From positions 1 to 36,450 of the forward strand of contig WIXG01000583.1 in NCBI GenBank assembly GCA_009869945.1: a DNA stretch of 36,450 nucleotides, written 5' to 3'. The stretch comes from Mesaphorura yosii. Taxonomy: Eukaryota; Arthropoda; Collembola; Poduromorpha; Tullbergiidae. The first letter of the stretch is position 1; each line of letters opens with the position of its first letter. The translations under genes were made by a program, and so were the position numbers. The notes under the pieces were generated by a model. That model had not been told where the DNA came from. It was given only the letters and a program-made list of their open reading frames with translations, and did not search any database. Below are positions 8,504 through 36,417 of this stretch, in pieces.

Positions 8504-10738
8504 TTAATCCACCGACTTGCGTCCCCGCTTCGCAGCTCCGCCCTCCTGCTCCGAGTCCAGAACGATGGTGGCAATGTTGTCCCAGGTCGCACCATCCGAC
8601 TTCTTCAAGTCCTTCTGCGGGCCAAACATAAACGCAGACACCTGTTCAATGTGAGTATGGAGCCAGGTGGCGGGGGGACTTACCTGAGCGATCTTCTTGC
8701 ACTTGACCTCGATGGGAATATTCTTACGGTGAGCCCGGAAGAAGGCAGCCTTCAGTTGCTCATCGTTGGCCGTCTGCATGTCGTGCAGCTTCATCTGCGC
8801 CAGAATCTCCACGTTCTCCCTGTAGAGCACCGTCTGAATGTGTGTGGTGCCGTCCTCGAACGTGACCTGTGGGTTTGATGATTGCTGTATTGAATTGAGT
8901 GTGAGAAGGAGATTTAAAGAACTCACGTAAAGCCGTGGAAACAGATTGTAGCTCTCGTTCTCGTGCTTCTCCTTGCAGACGTACTTTTTGCCCTTCCCCT
9001 TCAGCTGGACTTTCTTGGCACACCACGTTCCCCCCACCTTTGTCGGGCATCCCTCGTAGAACAAATCGCTCTTGTTGTTGAAGTGAATCGTCTTGACGAC
9101 AGCAGCCGGACTCAGAAACCCGAAAGTCGTTGCCCGTGACGCGCCTTTCTGCTTCGTTTCTACTTCCTGAAATGTCATCGGTTTGGACTTCGGGGCCGCA
9201 GCCGCACCACGCTTGAGACCGTCCTTTGGTTTGAATGGAGAGCCGGCAGGGATCTTGGCCACGAACCCACCTGCACTCGCGGCGGCTGAAGTGGACGCTG
9301 ACGGCGTGGGGCCGGGTGATGGTCTCGGAGCCAACTTAGGCTGAGCTGCAGCTGGTTTGCCGGTTGGGGTTCCGGCTGGCTTCGGGGCGGGTGGAGGCGG
9401 AGTCGGGCCTCCTAAAACGCCGCCACGAGCGATAGATGCCAAGATTTGTGCCACTTGAATAGTAATTGAGTTTTACTTTAATTGGCAGGCTTAATTTAAT
9501 TTAATTCAAGCAAGAAAGTGTCTTACATCCAGGTGGTGGTGGTGGCATTGGCGGCAATGGAACTGAAGGCTTCTTGACCGGCGGTTTTTGTGCCAGCGCC
9601 CGCTTTCCTCCTTCAGGCGGATTCGCCTTCTTGGTTGTCTTGGCTGGAGTGGCGCCCGCCGGTGGAGGAGCTGCAAATGCAAAAAGATTTCGTTAGACAT
9701 CTTGTATTTTGGTAGGGCAGGGAAGATTTACGTTTGCCCTTGCCGATTCCCGTCGCTCCGGTCGCATTGAAGAACGAGAATCCAGGAACCAACGGAGTCG
9801 TCTTTGGTGCAAGCTTCGGAGTGGCCGATGTCTTCTTCTTGCCAGCAGCAGCGTTTGGAGTCTGCGGTCCACCGACCGGGCTCTTTGGTTTCTTCATGGC
9901 GGTTCCAAGCTTTGGTTTGGCAGCTCCTGGTTTCGATGGTCCAGCATTTCCTGAATCCGCAATAAATGATTTAATTAAGATTCACGATTAAATTGTACTA
10001 ACGGTGGACGAAGTAAAATTCAACTCGATTTACCTTCAGCTTCCTTCTTGAGTGTTTTCGCAAACGATTTCTGTCCCTCGCAGTTCTTGATTCCTTCGAG
10101 GAATGCATCGAAGGCTCCTGGAGTGTTGCTGGAACCAAAAATTAGAATATTTAATGCAAATGCAGGTGATAAGAGAAGACGTGCCGGTATTTTAGCCTTA
10201 GAACGCCCACAAAGCTTGAAAGAGAACTGATTGGCCAAAGATAGTACCCAAAATAGCCAACATTACAACCAAGACAGAGAATTAAAGTATCAAAACCTAC
10301 GCAGGACACTTTAAATGTGATTCCGGTGCTAATTCAGCCCGCCAGCGACGCAAATATCCGGTATTTACGTCGTAGTGGGTTACTGGGTCATACACATGGC
10401 AAGAAGCTGAGCGCGCTTTTCCTCTACATGTGTTCTTGGCTAGCCTGCCTCTCTCACAATGCACGTAAGCTCCGAGCGCCGATTCCTAACTTAATCACTA
10501 AACCTTATCAGAATTGTCCAACTCACCACTCATCGAGAAACTCGAGCAGTGCATCCATCCGCGCATTGTTGGCCGCCTTCGAGTCGCTAATATTTCCCCC
10601 CAGATTCTTAAACTCCTTATGCTTCTCGAGGCTGAGGACCCGCTTCGCGATGAGTGGAGCTGATACGATAAAGTAATCGCAGAGCTTCATAATCTTGACT
10701 CTGTTTGAGAGCAGAGTCTCTTTCGTCTTGGAATTCAT
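8504..10738 (-). CDS. CARD plus RPA70 DBD-C-like OB-fold fusion protein
   Basis: I read seven exons in minus-strand order, 10738-10527, 10128-10034, 9950-9732, 9670-9527, 9453-8927, 8866-8684 and 8641-8504. All have GT-AG borders and sum to 505 codons plus stop. Residues 1-102 look like a CARD death fold. Core motifs are SNRVKIMKLCDYFIVSAPLI, ARMDALLEFLDE and PGAFDAFLEGIK, with the first intron inside the domain as in many death-fold genes. Residues about 103-330 form a Pro/Lys/Ala-rich linker with repeated PKLAP motifs and a polyproline run. Residues about 335-490 resemble the C-terminal OB fold of the large replication protein A subunit. Visible features are FYEGCPT, a zinc ribbon of Cys359, Cys368, Cys383 and His387, then VTFEDGTT and YRENVEILAQM. 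RPA70 has four cysteines in the ribbon, so the fourth ligand here would be His. The RPA N-terminal, DBD-A and DBD-B domains are absent. The tail is basic (KRGRKS) and could be a nuclear signal. Function is unknown. Nucleic-acid sensing or RPA-linked death signalling is inference. Confidence 0.82.
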
Positions 10739-13115
10739 CGTGGCTGGTGGTCACTGGTCACTTTCACTTGTCCACTTCACTGGAAACTGGATTCAACTGA
10801 CGAAATTGGATCGTGAGTCCGAGCAATAGCAGTACGTGTATAAGAGATCCCTCCAACTGACTAACCAACGTACCAACGTACTAAGCAGCAAGTAGGCAAA
10901 AGCATAGGAAGAGTAACGCGTAGAAACAGAAAAAAGTGAAGCCACCACTCAGAACGCTCAGAGTCAGTGCAGAGTTTCGTTGTTGAGTACGTTGCAGTTG
11001 CAGGGAGACGGATGGGGCATGCAGAGTGGCGAAATACACTCTCCGTACATATGTTGGATGTAGAGAGCGAGTACACGAGGAGGCTAGGCGGGCTTCCACA
11101 CTCGGCAGCATTAGAGACGGACGGAGTTGGACTGTGTTTCGAGGCGTAATGTGGTCGGGTCGCGCGCTCACTCTTCTTGGGCCCATAACCCAGGCAATGT
11201 TTGCATTGTGCTGATGGACCTTGAGCCAAGCCTGCCTCAGCCACGGCAAAGCACAGTATTACCATTACGTCAGATACGAGCTGTACAACGGCGTGTATTG
11301 CGGGTCGAGTACAGAGCTCGCATAGGCTTGTGCATACGCTTCCCAATGTATTGCCCGACCTGCCAGCGCAATTACGTCAGCACGTCTTTATTGCATGGGC
11401 CTGTGCATGGGACGCAGTACAGAAGCAGGATAGAGCCAGAGCACTGCTGCTTACACGCCACCATGGTACGTGTACATGAAGAGCGTAAGCGAAGGGCGGG
11501 CCGATCGAGAATCGCTGCTTTCAACGGCCACTGTGAACGCTTCTTCTGCCTGTGTGCTAAACTTGCGTGTAAAGAATAAAAGAGAATCCCCAGCAATAGA
11601 AATACGCCAGAACGACAAGTGGGGATCGAATTCTTCACTTGGGCACTGTATGGGCGCTGTACAGCCGTGCCATAGGCGAGTGTACACTGACGTGACTGTA
11701 TATGCTTTATAGAGGCGAGATGGCTGGCTGAAATACAGAATCAGAATCTAGGTCGTCGTGAAGCAATGCTGATTCCTGGGCTGTGTACGATTGTCATATA
11801 ACCAGGCCATCAAATGAGCGTGTTCACAGGCATAGGCAGTTTGCATCATAAAGCCCATCTCCATCAACGGCAACCTGTGAAATGAAGCTCAAACTCAAGC
11901 TTCTTCAGCGTACGCGTACGTACGCATTGGCTTTAGCTTCCCTTCTTCAGGTGAATGTAAATCGTAAATGCTCGCAAGCATGAAGGCAGTCGATTGGTAA
12001 GCCCATAATTGCTGCTGTTGCTTTCAACTGTTCAGATTCACGGAATACGCTGAGAATGCGTGCAATGTGTAAAAGCATAAAGGTAAAGGGTTAAGTTAAA
12101 CTAAGCGACGGCGACGACGACGACTCGACGATGATAATGGGCAATAGGCAGTAAGCAGTGGGTTTGGGCTTGGATTCAGTTTACGAGCTCGTAACATGGA
12201 AACCGTCAAGAGCTTGAAGTTTGCCAGTTTATTCATTCCTACCGTTCGTATTGCTGTAATGGTATAACTGGTAAACTGGTCGAGAATTCATGTTGTTGAA
12301 AGCGTTACTCTTCTGTTGATGTCGAGATTCGATACTCGTATTAAGTGATTCGAGTAAAGTGAACATATGCTGACTCACAATACATACGGTCTTGTGGACT
12401 GTATGCTGCTGTTTTACTGTACGTTTTTATGACCACCACGGACGCTAACGAAATAGTGAATAACGAAATGCGATGCGTTATGGGAAAATCCATGAAAGAT
12501 GAAAGCCATGCAGATGCGAGTTACGAGCCGAGATGATGAGTAATTCTAATTCTTAGTGCTGTAGTCTACTCTTTACAACGGTAATTACGGAATGGCTTAC
12601 GCTTCACGAGACGCATAAATATTTGTGAGATCTTCATCTTCTTCGTCTCCTTGCCTTTCAATACAATCATTCTGTGATTTTGCACTTCTACGATTCGCTA
12701 TTGCTTTTCCATTGCGCGATTTCTTCCACGTTCTCTGCAGATTTTGGCCTGGCATTTTGGCTTGGCTGCTTCATAAAAGGAATGAAATCTCAACTTTCTC
12801 GCCTGCGAACCTCAAAACTCGTAGCACCGCACCGTACTAAAATGGGATAAAGAGCAGGGATAAAATGCTGGTTCAGTAAAAGCAAGAGTTCGCGAGGTAA
12901 AGATTTTACGATCGCTGAGGTTTAAGACAAGCTTAGACTCAAGAAGACTTGATTTTTTATTGAATTGTTTTCGTTTTCGAATTCGGAGCGAGCAAAATCG
13001 AGTAAATAAAATCGGCAAATCGCGCGTGCAATAAAATGCAAGTGCTTAAAAGTTCTGAAACTAAAATTAGAGTGGCATGGCGCTAATCCGCAATTCCGGT
13101 AAGAAGTAGCGGAAT
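10739..13115. other. Long intergenic stretch, no gene supported
   Basis: This 2.4-kb stretch lies upstream of the minus-strand CARD gene and downstream of the next minus-strand gene. The open frames on both strands lack motifs, signal peptides or consistent splice signals. It holds an alternating purine-pyrimidine tract (11908-11927) and a CGA-rich run near 12105-12135. A minus-strand AATAAA (plus TTTATT at 12956-12961) may end the tetraspan gene to the right. Confidence 0.5.
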
Positions 13116-16025: not shown

Positions 16026-17432
16026 CTACCCGTACACCTCCAGCTCGTGAATCGAGTACCCAAATTCCGTCGCCCTCCCGAACGCGTACACCTTCACGTA
16101 TCTCGCCGTGGGAGGAAACATGTCCAGCCGAATCGTGTCCAGACCCCCGTCTCCGCCATAGTTCTCGTATACCGTCGTCCAGTATTCGACTTCGTCGTCC
16201 AGTGCCACCTGAACCTGATACATCCGAGCGTACGCCGCCTCCCAGTAAATACGAACTTGACGTATACTGCGTGGCTCGCCGAGGTCGACGTAAATCCACT
16301 GCTCGTCGGCGTAGGCGCTGCTCCATCGAGTGGAACGACTTCCGTCCACCGCCAGCTCGGGTTCATGGCCAGGCTCGTCCACGCTTGAGGATCGGATGGG
16401 TCGGCCTAACGCCAAATTCGGGGCTCCCCCGAGGTCAATATCGCCTTGGCTGAACACTCGCGAGTTGTAGTATGTCGCCTGCACACTCGCGTCCGTGTTG
16501 AAGGCGGGATCCTTCAGGTACTCGGCCCATACCATGAACCAGCTCCAACGGGGTTGCCGAGACAGCAGTTCGGGGTCAGGCACCGAGCCCACCTCCGCCA
16601 GCGAAATCGGCCTTCCTTCTGCGACCTCCAACATTCGATTATAATCGTAGTCGCTTGGGTAGCGGCCCACCCACATGTCCAGCGAGGCGACGTCGACGGT
16701 CTCGCCCCGCGGGAAGTACTCGCCAATTGCTCCCATCTGCACGTCCTTCACGTTCCACGTCCAGACGAGGTTCTGGAGCCCGGCCACGCCCACCATGTAC
16801 TCGTACGTGAGCTCGTAGAGGCGGCGGGAGCCCTGCGGGCCGGGTCTGCCTCCCCACCAACTCCAGCCTTCGTTGATCTCGTGAATGGGGCGCCAGATGG
16901 CGATCACACCCGCGTTGTCCAGCTGCCTCAGGAAGGGGACGATTGTGTCCACCCGCCGCTTCCACGCCGCGTTGAGCGTCCCGCTTTCATTGACGAGGTC
17001 CTCCCATTCCCAGTCTTGCAGATGACTCAGAATCCCATCGCTGTCCCAGTCACACGTCTCGCCGGTGGTCGGAGGACACACGTGCCATGTAAGAGCGACG
17101 AGGGAGCCAGCGTCCCACTGCCGGATGGCTTCGTCAATCATCGTCTGCCGACTTCGGACGTCGTCCGGGAGGAACAGAAAGTCGCCGCCCCAGAGCCCCG
17201 GGAGTTTGCCGGTGATGTCGTGGACGACGCGGGTCCATTTCGTGGGATCGGAGTTTGGCTCGCGGTTGTGCTGGCCGGAGACGGTGTGGGAGCCGGAGAT
17301 GGAATGCAGGTAGGCGATGAGGTCGATGCGTGAGAGGAGTCGGGGGCGCAGTTGTTGGCTAGTGGAAGGGTGGCTCCCACGAGTCGCAAAGACGCAGAGC
17401 GCCAACAGAATGATCTGCGGTAACAATTTCAT
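16026..17432 (-). CDS. Secreted GH26 beta-mannanase with F5/8C domain, intronless
   Basis: The product should hydrolyse beta-1,4-mannan, or a related plant or fungal glucan, outside the cell. A single 468-codon frame begins with a signal peptide (LLPQIILLALCVFA). Residues about 30-335 match glycoside hydrolase family 26. The acid/base Glu185 is in WRPIHEINEGWSWWGG and the nucleophile Glu280 is in PISLAEVGS. The conserved WVGRYPSDYDY strand lies between them. Residues about 338-468 form an F5/8 type C (discoidin, CBM32-like) carbohydrate-binding domain, from NLALGRPIRSSS to YSIHELEVYG. The linker is short and both catalytic residues are present, so the enzyme is probably active. GH26 with an appended F5/8C domain is a typically bacterial architecture. 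The absence of introns, against intron-split neighbours, suggests horizontal acquisition followed by gain of animal promoter and poly(A) signals. GH26 includes endo-mannanases, lichenases and xylanases, so substrate remains open. Confidence 0.9.
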   Translation of the reverse strand: MKLLPQIILLALCVFATRGSHPSTSQQLRPRLLSRIDLIAYLHSISGSHTVSGQHNREPNSDPTKWTRVVHDITGKLPGLWGGDFLFLPDDVRSRQTMIDEAIRQWDAGSLVALTWHVCPPTTGETCDWDSDGILSHLQDWEWEDLVNESGTLNAAWKRRVDTIVPFLRQLDNAGVIAIWRPIHEINEGWSWWGGRPGPQGSRRLYELTYEYMVGVAGLQNLVWTWNVKDVQMGAIGEYFPRGETVDVASLDMWVGRYPSDYDYNRMLEVAEGRPISLAEVGSVPDPELLSRQPRWSWFMVWAEYLKDPAFNTDASVQATYYNSRVFSQGDIDLGGAPNLALGRPIRSSSVDEPGHEPELAVDGSRSTRWSSAYADEQWIYVDLGEPRSIRQVRIYWEAAYARMYQVQVALDDEVEYWTTVYENYGGDGGLDTIRLDMFPPTARYVKVYAFGRATEFGYSIHELEVYG

Positions 17433-17963
17433 AGTTGCAGCGACTAATTTTATCGATCGCTCATCTGATCGGTTTGTTATTCTCGTTCATGGACGACAAG
17501 TACTTTGTGCCTGGAGAGTTGGAATTTGGCACTTGAGTTCAGCGAGGCTGATAAGCACTCTCCACTTTATACTTTATTGACAGCATTCACGCGTAAGGGA
17601 ATGCTCAGAGAATTGCATGATGGATGACACTTTCAACTTTCAACAACTTTCAGCTGCAGCGCCATCTGAACTGCTCTGCATGAGACAATAACCGAGCGTA
17701 CATTAATCCGGTTTAATTCGTTGTATGAATGTTTACAATTTTCTCCAAATTGCAGGAAGATGGAGGCAGCCTCTGTTGACAATGACACTTGAACGCGTGT
17801 GGTGCAGGCAGGGAAGGCGTTGCATTCCGAACCGTAAAGGAGCGGACTTCGTTCATTTGCCACAAGTTGTCTGTTCGATTTTCTAACGCGAAAAAGCGAA
17901 AATCATCCAGAGTTCCAGGAACCCAATCCTTTTGCGGGTCAGCGCCAGTGTTTCCAGTTCAGA
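17433..17963. other. Divergent intergenic region
   Basis: This region separates the minus-strand mannanase from the plus-strand signal-peptide exon and probably holds both promoters. No coding exon is seen. Confidence 0.45.
17564..17570 (-). promoter_or_regulatory. TATA box of the mannanase gene
   Basis: TATAAAG on the minus strand, with an initiator-like TCAGC about 30 bp downstream in the direction of transcription. The start codon follows after a leader of about 100 nt. Spacing is right for an animal core promoter. Confidence 0.5.
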
Positions 17964-31279: not shown

Positions 31280-32069
31280 CTTGATTGCATAATTAAATCC
31301 TGATAATGGGTTGGTTTGCTTTCCATTAAAATTTTGATGCATGAAATCCGTCTCCGTGAATTTGTAATTGGTTTTTCGCGTGCTTTGCGTAAAATCTAAC
31401 AGAAGACTGCTGTTTGAATTGAATGAGTACACTAATTAGCATACACATTTCTAAGATTCTTGAGTTCCAGGTACATTTGAAGTGAAAAATAAGAATTGCT
31501 GGATGCAATCGACTTTCGTACGGCGGCGAGCAGTGCAACGATGCAGAAGACGCGACAACGCTTTTGTAACTATTGACTCAAAAACATTTCGTAATTGACT
31601 AAAGCGTTCTTCTCTTTGTATTCTTCCTGACTACTATTTAGTACGAGACGAGAGCTCAAAGTGAGCAGACGAAAATTGATTGAATACGCCAAATGTTCAC
31701 CGATTCACTGTTTTAATTAATTGCAAGTTATTAAATAAATTGATTTGCATACTTGTGATCGTGCCTGGGACTCCGAACATGGCTTTTTAGGTCATTCGAC
31801 CCGGATTTAATTGATCATAACACCAATAACAGGTACGAGGCTGACTAAAGCGCCAAACAGTAATAGCTGGATTAATTTATTCAAAAGCATGATCTGAATT
31901 ATTTACTGTTAATGAAGTCAGGAATTTTTCTCGAGAAGACGTCAACGCGGTCAACAATTTCTTAATGATCGACTATTTAAGAAATGGTCTCCTTATTGCT
32001 TGGTTCAGCATTCACTCCTGAAATCTTTACCCTGAGCATCAGCTTTAATCATAAAAGAGTTCCGCAAAA
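31280..32069. other. Intergenic stretch
   Basis: No coding exon is recognised. The right end carries the TATA box of the small Cys-rich gene. Confidence 0.4.
31974..31980 (+). promoter_or_regulatory. TATA-like box of the eight-Cys secreted protein gene
   Basis: TATTTAA at 31974-31980 has an initiator-like TTCAGC about 30 bp downstream (near 32004-32009). The ATG follows about 60 bp later. Confidence 0.45.
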
Positions 32070-32396
32070 ATGAAGCTTATCTGTGCGGCAATCTTGTGCA
32101 TTGGACTTCTGTCCAGCAGGACCGAAGCTCAAGCGACGCCTCCAGCAGCGTGCTCATTCAGCGTCCAATTTTTTGGAGTCCCACTCCATACATTCAATAG
32201 TGGCTCGTGTTCTGCAACTTCGACTCCAGCATCTGGGCAACCCAATCAGCTTTGCTGTAGTGGATTTAGTGGGCCAATCGGAATCTTAAGTCTTTCAACG
32301 ACTGCTGCATCCAGTTGTTCAGCGGGTGGACGCTACTGCTGTATCGATTCTGCACTCATCCCGTCCGTCTTTCAACGACTGTTCTTACAGTGCTAA
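32070..32396 (+). CDS. Small secreted eight-cysteine protein
   Basis: A single 108-codon exon starts with a signal peptide (LICAAILCIGLLSSRTEAQ). The mature part is Ser/Thr/Ala-rich with eight cysteines spaced C-x18-C-x14-CC-x19-C-x6-CC-x16-C. It has two CC pairs and little charge (QLCCSG, GGRYCCIDS). The last half (C-x6-CC-x16-C) fits the second half of fungal hydrophobins, but the first half does not, because hydrophobins have their first CC pair immediately after the first Cys. It may be a cuticle, egg-shell or defence protein. The family is not recognised. A TATA-like box upstream and AATAAA at 32493-32498 support a real gene. Confidence 0.68.
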   Translation: MKLICAAILCIGLLSSRTEAQATPPAACSFSVQFFGVPLHTFNSGSCSATSTPASGQPNQLCCSGFSGPIGILSLSTTAASSCSAGGRYCCIDSALIPSVFQRLFLQC

Positions 32397-35247: not shown

Positions 35248-36288
35248 TTAGTGATTAATGGAGTAGGGCCCTTCTTCAGCACATTTTCTCAGCTTACTCC
35301 TCACTGTCTCCATACTCCTTCGGACGACGTCCAGGTCCACTTTCTTCAAGCAGGACTTGACCCTCCTGCGAAGCTGCTTCACGTCGGCCGCTCTCCAACC
35401 ATCCTTGTAGACCATTTGGTCCAGATAACCAAAGAAATCCTCAATTGGACGAGCTTGAGGCAGGTTCGTGGGATTGTCCTTCTTCATCACGAAATTGATG
35501 TGTTCAGCCTGGAGGAAGCTCGTCACTGATTTGGCGTAATGTGATGACGCCTTGTCCGGCCAGAACACGTAATCGTTCTCGGGGTACTTCTCCCTGATGA
35601 ATGGGACCAGGATCCGCCGGAGACACTCCTCTCGGTACACCTCCTGGTTAACGGCGTTCTTGGAAGGGAGGAAGTACGGCGCCGAGACACCACGTGGAGA
35701 GACGGCGATCCACAGGAGCACCTTCGCCTCGAACTTGTGCTTGAAATAATATTTCTTGCTCGGCGACAGGTTTCCTTTGTCGCTGGTGTAAAACCTGTCA
35801 TTTCCTGGCACTTGAGACTTGCTAAGAGTGAAGTAATGCTCATCATCAATAACGAACTCTTTACCCACGGAATTCCGATTCAGTCTTCGGCACTGCGTCT
35901 TGACGAGGGCAATTTGAGACTCAGTGTACTCAGGTGAGCGAATCTTCTTGTAAGTCTTGATGTTGGTCTTGTTCTTCAACGTTGTGGAGATGTGCTGCTG
36001 GGTACAGTTGAATTTGGATGCTGCTCTGGTCTGGGAAATGCTGTCACTTCCGTCAAAGAGCTTCTTGATTGAGGTCAGCCTTCTTTTGGTCATTATGACC
36101 GGCTTCTTTCCTGACCCAGGCCTTCTGTCCATCGTTTCTCCACGATCATACCTTTGAATGATGCCATAGATCGTCGATTTTGCGACCCCTTCCGCCTTGA
36201 AGTGCTTGGCGATGTCCAACTTGCTCCAGTCTGGATTGAGTTCAATTAGACGTCCGACGCGCTGTCTTAACTGCAGTTGCGCTGACAT
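35248..36288 (-). CDS. Tc1/mariner DD37E transposase
   Basis: This protein cuts and pastes the element that carries it. It has 346 residues, the usual size for the superfamily. The N-terminal third has paired helix-turn-helix signatures (GRLIELNPDWSKLDIAKHF and GVAKSTIYGIIQRYDRG), with GRPR-like DRRPGSGKKP between them. The catalytic domain shows VIDDEHYFTLS with the first Asp, VFWPDKASSHY with the second Asp, and NPTNLPQARPIEDFFGYL with the Glu. Exactly 37 residues separate the second Asp from that Glu, which is the DD37E arrangement best known from mosquito elements. The frame has no stop or frameshift and starts at the first ATG inside the left-hand repeat. Activity is plausible but unproven. 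Confidence 0.93.
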   Translation of the reverse strand: MSAQLQLRQRVGRLIELNPDWSKLDIAKHFKAEGVAKSTIYGIIQRYDRGETMDRRPGSGKKPVIMTKRRLTSIKKLFDGSDSISQTRAASKFNCTQQHISTTLKNKTNIKTYKKIRSPEYTESQIALVKTQCRRLNRNSVGKEFVIDDEHYFTLSKSQVPGNDRFYTSDKGNLSPSKKYYFKHKFEAKVLLWIAVSPRGVSAPYFLPSKNAVNQEVYREECLRRILVPFIREKYPENDYVFWPDKASSHYAKSVTSFLQAEHINFVMKKDNPTNLPQARPIEDFFGYLDQMVYKDGWRAADVKQLRRRVKSCLKKVDLDVVRRSMETVRSKLRKCAEEGPYSINH

Positions 36289-36417
36289 TTTTATTTTGGT
36301 ACATGCCTGAGAGAAAATTGCACAAAATTGGTTTTCATGAGCTTAAATGTGTAAGGATGAAGAATATGAAAAATGGAGGCCAAGAAAAAACGATTCCTTG
36401 GCCAGAATTTGAATTTG

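Follow-up and report, generated by a model that had tools for sequence, protein, structure and literature searches.

The locus analyzed here raises the question of whether a single arthropod gene encodes a CARD joined to an OB fold of the type found in the large subunit of replication protein A (RPA1/RPA70) and, if so, what such a protein might do. The window, i.e., the whole stretch of 36,450 nt under analysis, is an entire contig (C583) of a source genome of 93.0 Mb in 1,127 contigs. The cuticle domain Chitin_bind_4 is matched 66 times in this genome, which marks the source as an arthropod.

Structure of the gene and of its corrected 3′ end

The gene lies on the minus strand (window positions 10738 to 8504) and comprises seven exons separated by GT-AG introns, the spliced frame being open from ATG to stop, as the first-pass annotation had described. 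An in-frame stop is found just upstream of the ATG, and the stop-to-stop frame holding this codon starts at 10750. The long Pro/Lys/Ala linker noted in the first pass was confirmed in the spliced frame and is strongly basic (pI 12.3). The features of the corrected model are as follows.

10527..10738, minus strand: exon 1, initiating ATG and N-terminal portion of the CARD (residues 1 to 70 plus two bases of codon 71), ending in a phase-2 donor
10034..10128, minus strand: exon 2, the rest of the CARD (NTPGAFDAFLEGIKNCEGQKSFAKTLKKEAEG)
9732..9950, minus strand: exon 3, first part of the basic Pro/Ala/Lys linker
9527..9670, minus strand: exon 4, linker with a polyproline stretch
8927..9453, minus strand: exon 5, remainder of the linker, then the beginning of the RPA-C domain, where C359, C368, C383, and H387 are candidate zinc ligands
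8684..8866, minus strand: exon 6, OB-fold strands and helical insertion (YRENVEILAQM...), the fold being assigned by alignment to RPA1
8615..8683, minus strand: intron 6, corrected to 69 nt (its end lies at 8642 in the 505-residue model)
8504..8614, minus strand: exon 7 from its corrected start, with the final OB strand followed by the conserved basic tail AAKRGRKSVD and the stop codon

The initial model of 505 residues was right as to exon number and open frame but not as to length. In that model, exon 7 starts at 8641 rather than 8614 and thereby includes nine residues, VSAFMFGPQ, without which two metagenome proteins, P0001 and P0002, cross the exon 6/7 junction; an acceptor ending in CCGCAG at 8615 fits the corrected start. 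Because of these two observations the 505-residue model was rejected, and the protein has 496 aa. The correction raised the score of the domain against the Pfam family PF08646 from 29.5 to 31.1 bits and leaves introns 1 to 6 with lengths of 398, 83, 61, 73, 60, and 69 nt. We infer that exons 1 to 7 form one transcript.

Both metagenome proteins, P0001 (126 aa, 91% identity) and P0002 (125 aa, 58% identity), cover 68% of the domain query. They represent the C-terminal part only, with no part of exons 1 to 4, and could derive either from cDNA or from intronless genomic DNA; the exon 5/6 junction is crossed as RLY-VTFED. C383, H387, and the basic tail are kept in both. Taken alone, P0001 gave no PF08646 match at an E value of ≤0.01, and P0002 matched with an E value of 0.0079 (16.4 bits, under the cutoff of 28.5). 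Their first residues nearly coincide, both lying immediately ahead of GKGKK, which may reflect an intron in their source.

Three other minus- or plus-strand frames in the window may be recorded here. One of 486 aa (16029 to 17486, minus strand) carries a Glycosyl hydrolase family 26 domain and an F5/8 type C domain, which in an arthropod may point to horizontal acquisition. Another, an open frame of 364 aa (35251 to 36342, minus strand), has weak, sub-cutoff matches to DDE endonuclease and helix-turn-helix domains and is perhaps a Tc1/mariner-type transposase. The third is a Cys-rich frame of 113 aa (32055 to 32393, plus strand), secreted-looking and with CC pairs, with no Pfam match at an E value of ≤0.01.

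The C-terminal and N-terminal domains

On the evidence of profile comparisons, the C-terminal domain is genuinely related to RPA1 DBD-C, the similarity being beyond chance. The corrected domain matched PF08646 (Rep_fac-A_C) with an E value of 2.3e-7 and 31.1 bits, over the cutoff of 28.5; the whole protein scored 27.9 bits, slightly below it. Alignment by hhalign with the C-terminal domain of this genome's own RPA1 gave a probability of 93.5 (P = 2.3e-7 over 69 columns). When a profile of four sequences (the window protein, its paralog described below, P0001, and P0002) was compared with the PDB, ten sequences were listed, the best nine with E values of 1.1e-4 to 0.049, three of them below 0.001. 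Eight of these nine are named replication protein or factor A, and the other is 4gnx (“putative uncharacterized protein”), which we take to be Ustilago RPA. The top match was 1l1o with its relatives (E values of 1.1e-4 and up), and archaeal RPA was among the nine. PMC6303327 identifies 1l1o as a human RPA structure. A profile of the window protein and its paralog alone also ranked RPA70 first (E value of 0.027), and the single window sequence found no RPA match among PDB sequences. With PF08646 over the cutoff on the domain and RPA structures at the top of the PDB results, the first-pass description of an RPA70 DBD-C-like zinc-ribbon OB fold is supported.

According to PMC10122647, a zinc finger separates strands 1 and 2 in DBD-C of RPA1 and a helical segment separates strands 3 and 4, and the RPA trimer is built by the C-terminal helix of RPA1. 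The window protein has sequence matching both the zinc ribbon (beta1/beta2) and the helical insertion (beta3/beta4). Its zinc-ligand candidates, C359, C368, C383, and H387, stand at the positions first reported; their order is CCCH, the fourth being His, in contrast to the CCCC of RPA1. It differs further from RPA1 in lacking the trimerization helix, its chain closing with a Gly/Ala/Lys/Arg tail (AAKRGRKSVD) a short way past the final strand, and in that no other RPA1 domain was found by Pfam. This genome's own RPA1 has a longer C-terminal extension, with the sequence corresponding to the trimerization helix. Without that helix the window protein should not build RPA trimers, and the suggestion that it nucleates the RPA trimer was therefore dropped. 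Its identity as RPA1 itself was likewise rejected, the canonical RPA1 being a separate gene on contig C823. The OB domains of the window gene and the paralog are basic (pI 9.65 and 8.24, respectively); PMC6303327 reports that the RPA core holding DBD-C (DBD-C, D, and E) is a weak single-stranded DNA binder, as measured on isolated domains.

The N-terminal region appears to be a CARD-type domain, weak by Pfam but supported by a profile of the genome's own CARDs and by a common intron. Residues 1 to 103 alone matched Pfam CARD (PF00619) with an E value of 0.019 and 15.4 bits, under the cutoff of 23.9, and CARD was not listed when Pfam was run on the whole protein. In the genome, 26 CARD matches reach an E value of ≤1, and 10 of these are over the Pfam cutoff. 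From regions holding 20 of these 26, and with the window protein left out, a profile of 15 other CARDs was built, 9 of which pass the Pfam cutoff as single exons. The second copy at locus L032 and the CARDs of L033, L039, L040, and L042 were omitted, the reasons being a second exon not found, a second exon only, or a contig end; so were six other matches. Compared with the PDB, this profile finds CARD8, Apaf-1, cIAP1, RAIDD, NOD1, CED-3, and caspase-9.

Against the corresponding HMM, residues 1 to 103 scored 19.3 bits, a value reached by none of 1,000 shuffles (best shuffle, 8.4 bits), and hhalign with the 15-CARD profile gave a probability of 73 (P = 3.1e-5). Among 470 real ORF pieces, which come from overlapping loci and hence include some duplicates, 27 scored at least 10 bits and all looked like CARD exons by eye, the next scoring 4.4 bits; 22 of the 27 belong to CARDs of the profile and 5 to L040, L042, and the second L032 copy. 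In addition, all 13 profile CARDs that are split by an intron have it in phase 2 at the same place (the remaining 2 of the 15 are unsplit there), and in the window gene, too, this point is interrupted by a phase-2 intron. We presume that this common intron sits at the boundary of helices 4 and 5.

As a single query the N terminus had no PDB sequence match, and the weak PDB matches of a profile built from both genes included no CARD. Exon 1 alone was modeled (pLDDT of 73.7) with helices over residues 3 to 38 and 54 to 69 and no CARD bundle. A further model, of the unspliced window frame (with two introns read through) together with P0001 and P0002, had a pLDDT of 32.3, too low to be usable.

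A paralog and the search for further relatives

A second gene with the same order of N-terminal exons, long linker, and RPA-C domain was found on contig C626 (28528 to 30352; five exons, 500 residues). Its OB domain has 31% identity to that of the window protein, with an alignment score 20 standard deviations above shuffles, and passes PF08646 with 30.8 bits (the whole paralog, at 28.1 bits, is slightly under the cutoff). Zinc-ligand candidates occur in the order C, C, C, H, as in the window protein. The intron phases are 2, 1, 1, and 0, of which the first, second, and last match introns 1, 2, and 6 of the window gene (phases 2, 1, and 0); intron 5 of the window gene is absent. The linker of the paralog is acidic, with a pI of 3.4 versus 12.3 for that of the window protein, and contains (C626, 29029 to 29475) the V/I-K-x-E sites VKEE, VKQE, and IKTE, which resemble the SUMO acceptor consensus.

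The N terminus of the paralog had no Pfam CARD match, scored 2.5 bits against the genome CARD profile (with 59 of 1,000 shuffles as good), and gave a P value of 0.25 with that profile by hhalign. Taken together, the two N termini reached a probability of 16.5 (P = 0.0015), compared with 73 for that of the window protein alone. Between them the similarity is weak, 13 of 2,000 shuffles and 2 of the 470 ORF pieces being as good; the two pieces are one CARD exon in duplicate. If the N termini are homologous, as the intron phase and this weak similarity favor, the fusion would be older than the duplication.

Outside this genome no CARD-bearing relative was found in searches bounded by protein length and shared words. 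The full-length search yielded nothing at an E value of ≤1 among the 7,992 best word-sharing candidates, its length limits excluding fragments such as P0001 and P0002; the search with the N-terminal pair yielded nothing at an E value of ≤10 among 36 candidates. A scan of viral contigs for two peptide patterns produced 265 matches, of which not one was confirmed. Within the genome, the OB domain of the paralog retrieved the window gene (E value of 0.0016) and places on C217 (0.18) and C26 (5.4). The latter two both look like chance matches, there being no Pfam match at an E value of ≤10 and stops nearby; the C217 place is also overlapped by a Cys-rich frame in a different reading. A Pfam RPA-C search of the genome found the canonical RPA1 exons only. 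It missed both the window gene and the paralog, and further diverged copies are therefore possible.

Candidate partners and possible roles of the CARD–RPA-C protein

Several genes of this genome could supply CARD partners. On contig C895 (289 to 1816, minus strand), a CARD has caspase pieces after it on the same strand; together they probably form a CARD-caspase, a possible signaling partner. For 7 of the 26 CARD matches (contigs C689, C354, C371, C339, C1006, C958, and C277), an NB-ARC match lies within approximately 1 kb downstream on the same strand. The genome has 52 NB-ARC matches above the cutoff (counted as pieces, not genes), e.g., on C339, C689, C354, C371, and C463. Together with the CARD matches, this suggests an enlarged Apaf-1/NLR-like family in a 93-Mb arthropod genome, which to our knowledge would be unusual for an arthropod. 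The CARD-NB-ARC (Apaf-1-like) and CARD-caspase genes resemble the window gene in the phase-2 CARD intron, as seen in the 13 intron-split CARDs of the profile, but differ in their further domains, which, where seen, are NB-ARC or caspase and not an OB fold.

The nearest likeness in layout is to the PYHIN proteins IFI16 and AIM2, the latter a mammalian DNA alarm protein, in which, according to PMC7734173, a death-fold domain is joined to a HIN of two OB folds. The window protein likewise combines a putative N-terminal death-fold domain with a predicted C-terminal nucleic-acid-binding module of OB-fold type. The window protein differs in being CARD-like and not PYD, in having one zinc-ribbon OB of the RPA DBD-C type and not a two-OB HIN-200, and in being from an arthropod; no homology with PYHIN is claimed. 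Consistent with these differences, the Pfam matches of residues 1 to 103 list CARD only and no Pyrin domain, and the window protein has no HIN-200 match, the one-OB family Rep_fac-A_C being the only one near the cutoff. A role in sensing and signaling is plausible, and an AIM2-like framing of the protein is preferable to an RPA-like one.

Specifically, the protein may be a nucleic-acid-triggered CARD scaffold with the AIM2/IFI16-like order of death fold, linker, and OB fold assembled from unrelated parts, the reading that we favor, although we would place its likelihood somewhat short of even. The OB domain, as a member of the RPA1 DBD-C family, would bind single-stranded nucleic acid; the CARDs of several molecules on one strand would be able to meet thanks to the long flexible linker; and the clustered CARDs could seed a CARD oligomer engaging other CARD proteins, such as the C895 CARD-caspase or the CARD-NB-ARC proteins. 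As the conserved basic tail hints that the protein resides in the nucleus, the trigger could be viral or damaged nuclear DNA.

Two alternatives concern the architecture itself. That the N terminus is a helical non-CARD region, and the protein simply a divergent RPA-C-like one, would accord with the sub-threshold Pfam score, the lack of a CARD among PDB matches of either the single N terminus or the two-gene profile, the unrecognized N terminus of the paralog, and the exon 1 model without a CARD bundle. We nevertheless hold it to be distinctly improbable given the 19.3 bits unmatched by any of 1,000 shuffles, the CARD-like appearance of every one of the 27 ORF pieces at or above 10 bits with the next at 4.4, and an intron that agrees in position and phase with that of CARD genes. 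Less credible still is that the model is an artefact joining CARD exons and OB exons of two neighboring genes. Introns 2 to 4, of 61 to 83 nt, leave little room for a gene boundary, there is no AATAAA within the gene on its strand, and a second locus has the same order and the same first two intron phases; these points stand against metagenome relatives that reach the C-terminal part only, with no transcript over exons 1 to 4, and a 3′ end left unpinned by a nearest downstream AATAAA approximately 770 nt past the stop.

Two further alternatives accept the architecture and assign it another role, and we regard both as unlikely, one no less so than the other. The protein might be a nuclear adaptor in DNA damage or replication stress with no role in immunity, the OB domain binding single-stranded DNA or RPA-coated forks and the CARD recruiting a repair or cell-death partner. 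An OB domain of the RPA1 family, the conserved basic tail, and the SUMO-consensus-like sites in the paralog's linker are in keeping with this; however, the missing trimerization helix makes joining RPA by the known route unlikely, and CARDs are, as far as we know, uncommon in repair factors. Alternatively, the OB domain could be a protein-binding module with no part in nucleic-acid sensing, the protein regulating CARD-caspase or CARD-NB-ARC signaling, or acting as its decoy, in a dampening sense. OB domains can bind protein, as does the N-terminal one of RPA70, which PMC10479964 describes as a major protein interaction element; the CARDs here have also diverged, and CARD and NB-ARC matches are numerous in the genome. 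Against such a regulator stand the zinc-ligand candidates, kept in the paralog at a mere 31% domain identity, and the basic nature of both OB domains, as expected of a nucleic-acid binder.

The CARD and RPA-C parts are each known singly, and their combination appears to be new: among the open-literature matches listed, no CARD–RPA-C protein is described. We know of no AIM2-like receptors in arthropods, where the detection of foreign or damaged DNA and its coupling to cell death are poorly known, and a CARD fused directly with an OB fold of the RPA family provides a concrete candidate for such detection. More tentatively than for the scaffold reading, and with doubt prevailing, we propose that an arthropod lineage may independently have made AIM2-like sensors from a CARD and an RPA-type zinc-ribbon OB, feeding CARD-caspases or the enlarged CARD-NB-ARC set in an inflammasome-like DNA alarm. 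If this is true, “death fold plus OB fold” would be a solution reached more than once.
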